This document shows, in pieces, positions 1 through 2,220 of a stretch of DNA of 43,626 nucleotides. Under the pieces are notes generated by a model. That model worked only from the letters and a program-made list of their open reading frames with translations. It was not told where the DNA came from and made no database searches. This stretch comes from a virus. The first letter of the stretch is position 1, and the number at the start of each line of letters is the position of its first letter. Location of the stretch: positions 1 to 43,626 of IMG/VR virus record IMGVR_UViG_3300047550_003194. One strand, 5' to 3'. Position numbers and translations under genes: made by a program.

Positions 1-2
1 AT

Positions 3-95
3 AGTCTTGAAGTCGCTCAATCTGTTGCTGATAGTTGGAATGTTATCTATCAAAATGCACAGAATGGTTATATCGCTAAGGTTGCACTTTCCTGA
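3..95 (+). CDS. 3' end of a small unknown protein (partial)
   Basis: An open frame enters from the left edge and ends at TGA 93-95, giving about 30 C-terminal residues that begin SLEVAQSVADSW. The start lies outside the window, so length and family cannot be judged. The residue mix (A, Q, V, N, W) is protein-like, and the frame is followed six bases after the stop by the repeated leader of the next small gene. It appears to be the first visible member of a run of short genes that are more GC-rich than the rest of the window. I do not recognise the family. It could be the tail of a small helical protein, but nothing further can be said. Confidence 0.5.
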   Translation, partial: SLEVAQSVADSWNVIYQNAQNGYIAKVALS

Positions 96-100
96 TTAAG

Positions 101-148
101 TTTACACTTTTCCCACTTCAATTCTTCTCCAAATGACTAACACTTTCC
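101..148 (+). repeat. Leader repeat, copy 1 (5' UTR and start codon)
   Basis: These 48 bases match 321-368 at 47 of 48 positions, with a constant 220-base offset. The repeat covers the pyrimidine-rich leader TTTACACTTTTCCCACTTCA, an ATTCTTCTCCAA segment, the ATG at 133 and the first few codons. It contains no purine-rich Shine-Dalgarno site. The similarity stops abruptly on both sides, which suggests a duplicated expression leader rather than a duplicated gene. Confidence 0.85.
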
Positions 149-306
149 GAGTTGTAATCCCTACCGCTGATGGTATGCAAGTCGCTGGAGAGTTTCCCAC
201 TTGGTTGAATGCATCTCTGTTTCAGCAAGTTATTCTCACTGACCGCAATCTTAAGTGTTCGGTTGAATCGTTCTGTAACGGGATGTGGTTAAGCGAGTGG
301 GATTGA
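133..306 (+). CDS. Small unknown protein (57 aa)
   Basis: This short gene begins MTNTFRVVIPTADGM and ends CNGMWLSEWD. It has no motif that I recognise, no signal peptide and no membrane segment. The start is chosen because the ATG at 133 lies inside a leader repeat that also precedes the next gene at the same relative place. The second to eighth codons fall within the repeat, so the two neighbours share the opening MT-x-TF although the rest of the proteins are unrelated. Expression probably depends on the shared leader rather than on a Shine-Dalgarno site, since none is visible. The reading frame is supported by position and leader only, so the function is open. Confidence 0.55.
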   Translation: MTNTFRVVIPTADGMQVAGEFPTWLNASLFQQVILTDRNLKCSVESFCNGMWLSEWD

Positions 307-320
307 TTTTCTCTAATCCT

Positions 321-368
321 TTTACACTTTTCCCACTTCAATTCTTCTCCAAATGACTACCACTTTCC
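321..368 (+). repeat. Leader repeat, copy 2 (5' UTR and start codon)
   Basis: Second copy of the 48-base leader seen at 101-148, with one mismatch just after the ATG (base 360, c instead of a). It supplies the 5' UTR, the start codon at 353 and the first codons of the YETW-type gene. No -10 box is shared upstream of the two copies, so the repeat looks like a translation or RNA-level element rather than a promoter. Confidence 0.85.
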
Positions 369-598
369 AACGCAATGCTCTCGACATTTCCTATAACGGT
401 TGGGAGAATTATGAGACCTGGAATGTTGCTCTCTGGATTAACAATGACGAGAGTTTGTATCACCTTGCCCGTGAGTGTGGTGATTATCAAACCTTCTGTG
501 ATTGCCTTGGTTCAGATGCAGTAACTGGTGATGGGGTTCGCTATGATGACCCCAAGGTAAATGTCATCCAAATCAATAGCGATGTGTTTGACTTCTAA
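353..598 (+). CDS. Conserved phage protein with NGWENYETWNVALWINND motif
   Basis: An 81-residue acidic protein. Residues 15-32 carry the motif NGWENYETWNVALWINND, which I know from many small cyanophage and bacterial proteins annotated only as a domain of unknown function (I believe DUF7249; from memory). The remainder has several Asp/Glu and two Cys (DCLGSD region) but no catalytic signature. There is no signal peptide or membrane segment, so it is probably cytoplasmic. The start at 353 lies in the second copy of the leader repeat. Proteins of this type often sit in early or accessory phage regions, which fits the local context, but the biochemical role is unknown. Confidence 0.75.
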   Translation: MTTTFQRNALDISYNGWENYETWNVALWINNDESLYHLARECGDYQTFCDCLGSDAVTGDGVRYDDPKVNVIQINSDVFDF

Positions 599-657
599 GT
601 AACACAAAGGGGAATGAGATGCGCCTCTATAAAGACACTCACCAAACACACAGTTTC

Positions 658-677
658 TTACACTTTTCTTCTACATT
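658..677 (+). repeat. Shortened third copy of the pyrimidine leader
   Basis: The string TTACACTTTTC at 658-668 and the overlapping TTCTTCTACATT at 666-677 directly precede the ATG at 678. They match the two ends of the longer leaders at 101-132 and 321-352 with the middle missing. In all three cases TTCTTCTnCA lies just before the ATG, and in none is there a Shine-Dalgarno site. This supports a shared translation-start context. Confidence 0.6.
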
Positions 678-818
678 ATGTCCAAGCAAGTTCTCATTTC
701 TCTTCTGAAGCAAGGTAACACTGGCACTGAGATTCTGTCCATTCTGGATGCACTCGTCGCTGATAATGTTGCTGATGGTTATGATAATGAACCGACTGCA
801 GATGTGATCGAGTTCTGA
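678..818 (+). CDS. Small conserved-looking acidic protein (46 aa)
   Basis: The protein starts MSKQVLISLLKQGNTGTEIL and continues with SILDALVADN and an acidic C-terminus ending DVIEF. Its N-terminal half looks like two amphipathic helices. I recall similar short proteins with the KQGNTG-x-EIL pattern in cyanophages, annotated as hypothetical. The start is supported by the third copy of the pyrimidine leader immediately upstream. There are no Cys, no membrane segment and no signal peptide. The gene is followed within ten bases by a hairpin that could end transcription of this small-gene group. Function is unknown. Confidence 0.65.
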   Translation: MSKQVLISLLKQGNTGTEILSILDALVADNVADGYDNEPTADVIEF

Positions 819-826
819 TAACTGAG

Positions 827-855
827 AGGGCACGGGGTTTGACACTCTGTGCCCT
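827..855 (+). terminator. Hairpin terminator candidate after the small-gene group
   Basis: Bases 827-837 can pair with 845-855 (AGGGCAC...GTGCCCT core of seven pairs, then four more pairs including two G-U) around a seven-base loop. Only three T residues follow, so it would be a weak intrinsic terminator. Its loop and 3' arm overlap the -35 box of the promoter at 839-868. Confidence 0.5.
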
Positions 856-868
856 TTGATGTTATACT
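839..868 (+). promoter_or_regulatory. Sigma70-type promoter (TTGACA-N18-TATACT)
   Basis: A perfect -35 box TTGACA lies at 839-844 and TATACT (5 of 6 to consensus) at 863-868, separated by 18 bases. This is close to the host-type early promoters of T4-like phages. Transcription would begin near 875 and read through a GC-rich leader into the small genes at 1019 and 1211. Confidence 0.6.
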
Positions 869-1018
869 GGTTGATATAGTGCTCAGGCAGTTAATTCTGG
901 CGGGGTTGTTATAGCGCGGCGCGGCGTTGTCGTATATAAAATTTTGGGTCCTCTGTAACCTACAGTGTATGTCTTTTTCGAGTTCTCTATCACGCTCATA
1001 AAAAAAATTTCCGGAAGT

Positions 1019-1189
1019 ATGATCAGTCTCAAAAACCCTCAAAGATATTCTCAAAGGCACCCCTACTGGAATTTCTGGAAAGTTATTTTAGCAGGATGGA
1101 TGCTTCGATATCCTGATAAAATTTTTCGATTTATTGGAATTCCTCTTGGTATATTGATAGTAATGATATATAAATCGGTGACGAAATAA
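1019..1189 (+). CDS. Small membrane protein (56 aa)
   Basis: The protein opens MISLKNPQRYSQRHPYWNFW, has an internal RYPDKIFRFIGI segment and ends with one hydrophobic helix (IPLGILIVMIY, residues about 41-51) followed by KSVTK. That is the pattern of a single-pass membrane protein with a basic tail. I recall similar short proteins in cyanophage genomes without known function. The ATG at 1019 is preceded by GGAAG at 1013-1017, which is closer than usual. A GTG at 965 in the same frame would add 18 residues but has no better signal, so I prefer 1019. It could modify the host envelope during infection, which is only inference. Confidence 0.6.
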   Translation: MISLKNPQRYSQRHPYWNFWKVILAGWMLRYPDKIFRFIGIPLGILIVMIYKSVTK

Positions 1190-1210
1190 AAAATTTCCGG
1201 AAAAATTTTT

Positions 1211-1402
1211 ATGGAAAAAATATATCACATATACGCAAAGGGTCAGTGCATATATCACAGTTTAACAGAAGAAAAGTTCTCTGAAATTTGGGAGATGTTA
1301 CACAGAATGATTGATTTACTTGATATAAACATTTTAGAGAATGATTTGCAATATGAGGAATTGTGTATAAACAAAGAAGTTACATTAAATTCATCACATT
1401 GA
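1211..1402 (+). CDS. Small conserved phage protein (63 aa), unknown
   Basis: A compact acidic protein starting MEKIYHIYAKGQCIYHSLTE, followed by an amphipathic helix (EEKFSEIWEMLHRMIDLLD) and an acidic end with the pattern LQYEELCINKE. I associate this YHIYAKG-x-CIYHSL opening with a conserved cyanophage hypothetical family (memory, not searched). GGAA at 1199-1202 lies eight bases before the ATG and is an adequate ribosome site. There are two Cys, no membrane helix and no signal peptide. It follows the membrane-protein gene and probably shares its transcript from the promoter at 839-868. Its stop codon lies within the -35 box of the next promoter. Confidence 0.7.
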   Translation: MEKIYHIYAKGQCIYHSLTEEKFSEIWEMLHRMIDLLDINILENDLQYEELCINKEVTLNSSH

Positions 1403-1428
1403 CAAATGCATATATAGACTGTTAAAAT
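1399..1428 (+). promoter_or_regulatory. Sigma70-type promoter (TTGACA-N18-TAAAAT)
   Basis: TTGACA at 1399-1404 is a perfect -35 box and overlaps the TGA stop (1400-1402) of the upstream gene. TAAAAT at 1423-1428 matches the -10 consensus at 5 of 6 positions with an 18-base spacer. It is well placed to drive the glycosyltransferase-like gene starting at 1453. Confidence 0.6.
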
Positions 1429-1452
1429 TGAAAATGAAAATTATTTTAACTT

Positions 1453-2220
1453 ATGGCAAAAGGATTCACTGTTAAAACGGTTCCACCAAAACAAAAGACT
1501 GAAGAGTGGGACTATGATGCGATTAAAGCAAGAATGAGAGGTAAAAGCATTGTATTTTGTCTTCCTGGTAGAGGATGTTCATATATCTTCTTGAAGGCAT
1601 TTGTTCAACTTTGCTTTGATCTTGTACAAAACGGAATGAGTATTCAAATTTCTCAAGACTACTCATCAATGGTAAACTTTGCACGTTGTAAATGTTTAGG
1701 TGCAAATGTTCTTCGTGGTCCCAAGCAAATTCCTTGGGATGGAAAACTACAATATGATTATCAACTCTGGATTGATAATGACATTGTATTTGACACAAAT
1801 AAATTCTGGCAATTGTGCGATCTTGCATTATCAGAAGATGGCACGGAACGTGAAGTTGTTGCTGGATGGTATGCAACAGAAGATGGGCACACAACCTCAG
1901 TTGCTCATTGGTTAGAAGAAGATGATTTTCGTAAGAATGGTGGCGTCATGAACCACGAAACTGTAGAATCTATCAGTAAGCGTCGTAAGCCATTTACTGT
2001 AGACTACACAGGGTTTGGTTGGGTAATGATTAAAAATGGAGTATTTGAAAATCTAGAGTATCCTTGGTTTGCTCCAAAAATGCAAGTCTTTGAGTCTGGT
2101 GATGTTCAAGATATGTGTGGAGAAGATGTTTCATTCTGTCTTGATGCAAAGGATGCAGGATTTGAGATTTGGTGTGATCCTCGTGTTCGTGTTGGGCACG
2201 AAAAAACTCGCGTAATCTGA
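1453..2220 (+). CDS. GT-A fold glycosyltransferase-like protein
   Basis: A 255-residue protein with features of a nucleotide-sugar transferase. LWIDNDIVF (residues 105-113) gives a D-x-D motif (DND 108-110) for metal and sugar-nucleotide binding. CGEDVSFCLDAKDAGFEIW (222-240) resembles the acceptor and catalytic acidic region of GT2-type enzymes, and a final GHEK (248-251) supplies a late His seen in several such families. There is no signal peptide or membrane segment. It probably adds a sugar to a phage or host macromolecule, but the substrate cannot be inferred. It has its own sigma70-type promoter and its stop overlaps the next start (TGATG). A non-catalytic relative is possible. I am confident of the fold class, less so of activity. 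Confidence 0.75.
   Translation: MAKGFTVKTVPPKQKTEEWDYDAIKARMRGKSIVFCLPGRGCSYIFLKAFVQLCFDLVQNGMSIQISQDYSSMVNFARCKCLGANVLRGPKQIPWDGKLQYDYQLWIDNDIVFDTNKFWQLCDLALSEDGTEREVVAGWYATEDGHTTSVAHWLEEDDFRKNGGVMNHETVESISKRRKPFTVDYTGFGWVMIKNGVFENLEYPWFAPKMQVFESGDVQDMCGEDVSFCLDAKDAGFEIWCDPRVRVGHEKTRVI

Follow-up and report, generated by a model that had tools for sequence, protein, structure and literature searches.

The locus examined here raises the question of how three small viral genes are expressed from leaders that share sequence motifs and lack a Shine-Dalgarno (SD) site. The window (the whole stretch of DNA analysed) is a 43,626-base virus record which at the DNA level is related to Synechococcus phages and to two single-cell virus records of marine origin, with S-CREM1 as the best-covered named relative over its first kilobase. 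Because its genes agree in order and size with the baseplate-wedge region of Synechococcus phage DSL-LC02, the window is taken to be a fragment of a T4-like cyanophage. The leaders and the three genes sit in a small-gene cluster upstream of the baseplate genes.

Leaders and genes of the small-gene cluster

Leader 1 (101–132, plus strand) is intercistronic, G-free and unstructured, as seen from the repeat, the G count and folding, and precedes orf57 (133–306, plus strand), which encodes a 57-amino-acid protein (MTNTFRV...) with homologous starts in 11 other loci. Leader 2 (321–352, plus strand) is the same as leader 1 over all 32 nt and precedes a DUF7249 gene (PF23907, phrog_871; 353–598, plus strand), whose 81-amino-acid product was assigned by PHROGs and Pfam matches to this family of unknown function. 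Leader 3 (642–677, plus strand) contains TTACACTTTTCTTCTACATT and is the G-poor spacer between an H-type pseudoknot, termed alpha (608–641, plus strand), and the ATG of gene678 (678–818, plus strand). Gene678 encodes a 46-amino-acid protein (MSKQVLISLLKQG...) that is acidic by inspection, and 183 distinct homologous starts, including that of the window, were collected. The orf57 protein has no family match in PHROGs and Pfam at E 0.001 and no match in the phage collection; the gene678 protein has none in PHROGs or Pfam at E 0.001 and none among PDB sequences at E 1. The three genes had been described as unrelated, and they indeed have no mutual similarity beyond one four-residue match (E 0.97).

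The original prediction was of a 48-base leader present at 101 and 321. A direct repeat of this length exists (101–148 and 321–368, one mismatch), but the true leader part is only the identical 32 nt of 101–132 and 321–352; the other 16 of the 48 bases (133–148 and 353–368) are already coding and read ATGACTAxCACTTTCC from the start codon on, in orf57 as in the DUF7249 gene. The sharing of TTACACTTTTC by all three leaders is real and not due to chance, given exactly three copies in the window (102, 322, 658) against 0.05 expected, a number reached by 0 of 100 shuffles; with one mismatch allowed, there are still 3 copies against 1.96 expected, which is not unusual. TTCTTCTnCA, also said to be shared, has 7 copies in the window against 0.97 expected, of which 3 stand at the leaders and 4 lie elsewhere on the minus strand. 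The third copy had been regarded as a shortened form of the other two. Instead, ACACAGTT...ACACTTTTCTTCTTTATT-ATG is a separate leader that is found before gene678 homologues in other contigs, and in the window it is placed behind the RNA pseudoknot at 608–641.

The reported lack of a purine-rich ribosome site was borne out, as the anti-SD energies of leaders 1, 2 and 3 are +2.8, +2.8 and +3.6 kcal/mol. The last 30 nt of these leaders contain 0, 0 and 1 G, and the folding energy is 0.0 for leader 1 and −1.2 (−35 to +15) for leader 3. A promoter function of the leader is very unlikely. The leader includes TTTACA, which resembles a −35 hexamer; however, leader 1 starts directly behind a stop codon, and a scan of window positions 1–1500 found 6 promoter-like sites against 4.4 expected, none of which overlaps the leaders.

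Exchange of leaders and what stays constant

The leader motif ACACTTTTC was found in 86 distinct contexts, of which 69 have, within the next 50 nt, an ORF that is 25 codons or longer (less where the locus ends), some of these ORFs looking spurious, and 17 have none; as many of the loci were retrieved by the motif or by DUF7249, this count is no sample of all phages. Summed over 27 whole records, with the same retrieval bias, ACACTTTTC occurs 61 times and the reversed motif 11 times. Seven small protein families, chosen by eye, stand behind ACACTTTTC leaders and have no mutual similarity below E 0.025. The expectation that the motif precedes other phage start codons thus holds for other small genes, but not for the genome at large: a 219-kb relative (G001) carries it only three times, twice within leaders and once within the opening codons of orf57. 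The ACACTTTTC leader is accordingly read as a local toolkit and not as a genome-wide start signal, because these three copies all lie in the small-gene region (198,876–199,659). Across IMG/VR, the exact leader plus ATG (a 35-base pattern) gave 0 matches, and looser patterns gave 10 and 9 stretches, among which L010 and L118 (probably also L016, L114 and L115) were rejected as not being such leaders.

Homologous genes do not keep one leader. When leaders were typed by regular expression as T1 (the leader of the window), T2 (a promoter-like AAAGTGY..TAGTRT) or other, several of the last being T2 variants that escape the expression, the 123 DUF7249 starts divided into 30 T1, 55 T2 and 38 other, and the 12 orf57 starts into 3, 7 and 2. 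At three loci (L086, L092, L064), a T2 element is followed by CCCACTTCAATTCTTCnCCAA, which in the window forms the 3′ half of the leader; this suggests that even leader halves are exchanged. Small genes are shuffled at the leader as well: a gene X is followed by leader–DUF7249 in L009 and L014, which are identical to each other in this stretch, and by leader–orf57–leader–DUF7249 in L013, where gene X is 79% identical to that of L009. The junctions in L009 and L013 are compatible with recombination inside TTACACTTTT, and the alignment of these contigs indicates that orf57 is gained or lost between two leader copies, a shuffling like that at PeSL cassettes. The notion of a portable expression leader therefore gains support from the seven dissimilar families, the different leaders of homologues and the gain or loss of orf57.

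The T2-type element (about 10 nt plus AAAGTGYnnCnnTAGTRTRAG) precedes many small genes, with 391 distinct regular-expression matches, at loci including L108 (in G001), L133, L139, L153, L197, L253 and L337. G001 has 8 such elements, all on one strand, with 0 in reversed controls, and the window has 0. The 12 nt before the element are alike at 0.78 within a locus and at 0.53 between loci (21 loci), which would fit a version specific to each phage. T2 contains AAAGTGT and AGTGTAAG, of which the leader core has the reverse complements, ACACTTT and CTTACACT, by chance or through pairing.

Composition stays more constant than sequence. The 30 T1 leaders before DUF7249 genes have 0.60 G per 30 nt, anti-SD energies below −4 in 0 of 30 and a folding energy of −0.27 for −35 to +15, against 4.87 G, 29% and −4.27, respectively, for 244 G001 genes predicted by a simple purpose-written caller. 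About 70% of these G001 genes have no clear SD site either, and the missing SD site in the leaders therefore weighs little. Before gene678 homologues, the last 24 nt contain no G or a single one at 175 of 183 starts, irrespective of ACTTT in −24 to −1 (105 of the 109 starts that contain it; 70 of the 74 that do not). In pairs of gene678 homologues at 50–80% protein identity, aligned ungapped and anchored on the right, so that indels lower the leader figure, likeness is lower for the leaders (0.45) than for the third positions of codons whose residues are shared (0.62), and strong conservation of the leader sequence was ruled out. Since G-poverty holds in the starts that lack ACTTT and leaders diverge past silent sites, scarcity of G and of structure is the constant: what is kept across homologues is composition and openness, and neither the sequence nor a pyrimidine motif. 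This agrees with the portions of three papers considered here (PMC6847405, PMC5397173, PMC3121790), according to which cyanobacterial genes that lack an SD site tend to be less structured around the start; in the portion of PMC6847405 concerned, two other cyanophages mimic their hosts in SD use.

The original prediction offered capture of the pyrimidine tract by ribosomal protein S1 as a way to drive SD-less starts. Leaders 1–3 have 23, 23 and 22 pyrimidines in 30 nt and no SD site, and S1-reliant starts are described for some cyanobacterial mRNAs in the consulted section of PMC6847405. In that of PMC5397173, leaderless mRNA and/or S1 are given as possible causes of the start-region bias in a group of phyla that includes cyanobacteria, but S1 might not function in cyanobacterial initiation. 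The tract itself is not kept, as 42 of the 183 gene678 leaders, all among the 74 that lack ACTTT, have a purine majority, and the scarcity of G persists in nearly all of those 74. S1 capture is thus not favoured and is regarded as unlikely.

Alternatively, the leaders could be mainly recombination joints, shuffled like PeSL cassettes, with no special role in expression and a likeness that reflects recent copying. The extension of the 48-nt near-identity by 16 nt into coding sequence fits this explanation, as does the insertion or loss of orf57 between leaders. However, G-poverty and openness persist in quite different leader sequences, which makes copying alone insufficient, and this explanation is considered rather improbable, somewhat more so than S1 capture. 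The likelihoods given to the alternatives in this report answer overlapping questions and need not sum to one.

Pseudoknots upstream of the gene678 family

The alpha pseudoknot consists of helix S1 (608–612 with 624–628) and helix S2 (615–618 with 638–641), with the loop AUAAAGACA at 629–637; read by eye, S2 could be extended by U620–A637 and G621–C636 with A619 bulged. Between it and the stop codon upstream are 9 nt, and between it and the third ATG 36 nt. The alpha covariance model, which was built with the window's sequence included, matches 606–641 at E 4.9e-17. In minimum-energy folding with a programme unable to score pseudoknots, the preferred structure of 599–700 is a different one that pairs with the coding region, and the 42-nt knot region does not outperform shuffled sequences (z 0.17). 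This alternative, which would engage the alpha loop with coding bases of gene678, looked unconserved by eye and was set aside.

Three dissimilar pseudoknots (alpha, beta, gamma) share one site before the gene678 family. Covariation was assessed in two alpha sets, A1 (25 of the 27 distinct sequences in one length class; the two excluded have a loop longer by one base) and A2 (all 30 of its class), and in one gamma set, A3 (21 of 34 distinct sequences, one length class). The A1 and A2 counts together cover 55 of the 86 alpha sequences that are distinct after trimming; of the 31 others, 19 belong to the shortest main class. In A1 and A2, 97.3% and 97.5% of cells are paired and 11 and 15 cells are changed on both sides; in A3, 93.2% are paired and 41 are changed on both sides. 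Paired cells, both-side cells and the covariation score were equalled by 0 of 500 shuffles in each set, with the caveat that related sequences may exceed shuffles even if they have no structure, and slid controls have far fewer paired cells and fewer both-side cells than the true register. Changed-pair and type counts are not exceptional, being as high in 422 and 418 (A1), 35 and 324 (A2) and 166 and 41 (A3) of 500 shuffles, and A1 slid by 2 scores 0.226, slightly over the 0.180 of the true register. In A2, the second helix changes from UGAG/CUCA to UAAG/CUUA in 13 of 30 sequences. These comparisons support covariation of the alpha and gamma pairs. The beta pseudoknot is supported by a few variants that alter both helices (UGUC/GGCA, UGCC/GGCA, UGAG/CUCA, UGGG/ACCA), with rows filtered on first-helix pairing, the second helix read by eye and one variant pairing at 3 of 4 positions; its alignment (A4, 11 rows) was used for the model only. 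Since the search patterns fixed many bases, conservation at those bases carries no evidence.

Pattern scans of IMG/VR found alpha in at least 119, beta in 91 and gamma in 55 stretches, and the loci contain at least 238 distinct elements (alpha at least 124, beta 73, gamma 41). At least 231 of these have a downstream ORF, and at least 195 of the ORFs form one cluster, the gene678 family (alpha at least 99, beta 69, gamma 27); the remaining ORFs (at least 36) form 22 small clusters, the largest of 10. Measured from the extracted element, the spacing to the ATG is narrow: 35 or 36 nt in 70 and 34–37 nt in 85 of 119 alpha elements (total at least 119), 31–32 nt in 56 of 73 beta elements and 29–31 nt in 25 of 39 gamma elements. 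An exact alpha pattern gave 0 matches in the genomes of 84,980 bacterial and archaeal species. In 13 records searched with the covariance models, the matches listed include one strong alpha in each of 8 records, a further alpha at E 0.048, one strong gamma (G028) and three strong beta (G028, G032, G034), the others listed being near threshold. S-CREM1, whose host is Synechococcus CB0101, has its alpha match (88498–88532) before its gene678 homologue. In DSL-LC02, alpha lies 41 nt before a gene annotated as ParB/RepB/Spo0J-like, and the leader between them has an AAGGAG site, so leaders behind knots are not always SD-less; the gene678 homologue of this phage has a diverged alpha-like block upstream that the model missed.

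Some loci depart from the single-element arrangement. L088 (3264–3560) has a gamma and three alpha elements in one stretch, two alphas having long loop inserts; in L064, L089, L008 and L072, loop 3 of some alphas is enlarged by an additional hairpin-like insert, which reads GGGTTGGAAATCTCCGACC in L064 and L089; behind the alpha of L072 stands another knot-like block. Tandem gene678 paralogues, the first behind beta and the second behind gamma, occur in L046 (3256–3540) and G028 (44890–45155).

It is typical of riboswitches that a gene family is preceded by several folded elements unlike one another, and alpha, beta and gamma could accordingly be three aptamer classes for one metabolite; their architecture has a superficial resemblance to preQ1-I. 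Against such an assignment, Rfam 15 gave no family at gathering threshold in 15 loci, riboswitches included, and at E 5 only sub-threshold hits to miRNA, CRISPR, sRNA, fluoride and other models in four stretches, which sets aside a known RNA family. Moreover, the third leader has no SD site to sequester, and window positions 1–1500 have no terminator-like site. A riboswitch role is therefore thought rather unlikely.

The position of the elements bears on two further alternatives. An open frame ends at most 70 nt upstream in 209 of the 223 elements that have enough upstream sequence, at a median of 6–7 nt before the extracted element, flank included. A spacing of about 10 nt after a stop codon resembles that of viral read-through elements, and a knot that promotes read-through into gene678 is conceivable for the 69 of 191 cases in which the frame stays open for at least 20 codons. 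However, the median is only 10 codons and the stop-to-ATG phase is mixed (alpha 22/42/32, beta 28/22/15, gamma 9/10/11; n = 191), and recoding is disfavoured on both counts as extremely improbable, even more so than a promoter role of the leader.

Secondly, the knots might shield mRNA from nucleases and so guard the U-rich open leader behind them. A sigma-70-like site lies just upstream of 8 of 234 elements (1.9 expected), and five of the eight precede one 74-amino-acid (LNIAN) family; before these five alphas, the distance from the end of a near-consensus site to the extracted element is 9 nt, which would put the knot near the mRNA 5′ end. Most elements are intercistronic, as noted, and their loops look more conserved than a simple barrier would require, with the caveat that many loop bases were prescribed by the search patterns. 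Shielding is thus held to be unlikely, to about the same degree as S1 capture.

A putative control element and its relation to known systems

The explanation that is considered probable, albeit by modest confidence, is a modular 5′-end toolkit that combines G-free leaders with translational control by a pseudoknot and leader at the third gene. This toolkit would belong to the small-gene (ORFanage-like) region of T4-like cyanophages. In a G-free leader, which is unstructured by computation, the ribosome would start independently of an SD site because the AUG stays open. The leaders would double as recombination joints, a role shown by comparing a few contigs, such that small genes may be gained or lost along with a working start. 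Leaders 1 and 2 are too short for a knot, so a leader can do without one. At the third gene, the pseudoknot and the open leader would form a single translational control element, in which a factor, or a change of conformation, would nucleate at the knot and from there determine whether the single-stranded leader and the AUG are accessible. The original prediction also offered recognition of the leader by a phage or host factor; for such recognition, the pseudoknot 36 nt 5′ of the third ATG is the better candidate. The knot before gene678 probably controls or protects translation, and the control element would work in the manner of the T4 gene 32 translational operator.

The T4 gene 32 operator, as far as the cited passages describe it (PMC535899; review PMC3014915), has in a T4-like phage a 5′ pseudoknot of about 28 nt and, behind it, a less structured stretch of more than 40 nt with short repeats that reaches the start region. 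The covarying alpha pseudoknot (608–641) likewise lies 5′ of a start region, and the layout of a knot followed by an open leader is common to both, on these descriptions. By contrast, the cyanophage knots are upstream of gene678 and other genes and not of gene 32, their sequences differ, three of them are interchangeable, the third leader lacks an SD site, the leaders are CU- or CA-rich instead of containing UUAAA repeats, and the short repeats of the third leader appear weaker. Common regulation by gp32 was considered and dropped: the three knot models gave nothing convincing before gene 32 at 11 loci (10 with upstream DNA), their 7 weak matches (best E 0.03) all lying far downstream of the gene starts that were read, which leaves gp32 unsupported as the factor. 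Gene 32 upstream regions were read by eye in L368, L373, L374 and L378, L371 has no upstream DNA, and the other six were covered by the models only. The knots may therefore work like the gene 32 operator without being members of it. Leader exchange, G-poverty, openness, covarying pseudoknots and narrow spacing are computed results. A more specific possibility, put forward tentatively and with clearly lower confidence than the toolkit as a whole, is that at least three dissimilar pseudoknots serve one regulator or ligand and switch translation via a G-poor leader from about 30–36 nt before the AUG; in this tentative view, the AUG would mostly be that of the gene678 family, with rarer use before other genes such as the ParB-like one.

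PeSL elements are reportedly mobile regulatory cassettes of T4-type phages. Like the leaders, they are, so far as the sources at hand describe them, short, intergenic, located between small ORFs and tied to gene shuffling. Unlike them, leaders 1 and 2 have no promoter-like site in the sigma-70 consensus scan and no stem-loop (folding energy 0 for 95–150 and 310–370). A PeSL-like arrangement exists downstream of the leaders, where a strong hairpin just 3′ of gene678 (window 818–868; z −5.6 and −6.9) overlaps a near-consensus sigma-70 site, TTGACA-18-TATACT. Farther on, repeated AAAAAATTTCCGGAA stretches at 1001–1016 and 1188–1210 have an inverted-repeat character. PeSLs were judged unlikely to explain the S-PM2 ORFanage in the relevant passage of PMC4503421.

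Other cis-regulatory RNAs of cyanobacteria and cyanophages, namely wcaG, manA, glnA and Downstream-peptide (PMC2864571; PMC9964418), are, in the excerpts used, structured and located before genes, some of them before short ORFs, as are the knots; unlike these RNAs, the knots have no Rfam match. The table of the S-CREM1 paper, as available, lists abiF, wcaG, manA and glnA, none at the position of the alpha match. TAACTGA repeats lie mostly near start codons, often where a ribosome site is missing, and an S1-, Csp- or Csr-type regulator is proposed for them in the part of PMC4679880 consulted; they differ from the present elements in organisms, sequence and arrangement, and that part mentions no pseudoknots. 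Among papers retrieved on cyanophage SD sites, pseudoknots or riboswitches, none describes these leaders or knots in its title or the beginning of its abstract.

If the tentative possibility of three interchangeable knots that serve one regulator or ligand is true, it would be a second case of viral pseudoknot-controlled translation after T4 gene 32, and one assembled by shuffling. If the knots work similarly, they would constitute a large set of phage-encoded translational switches, testable in the isolate S-CREM1. G-free leaders may serve as SD-independent start parts for cyanobacteria, and the modular leaders show how cyanophages may add or drop small genes without losing expression.
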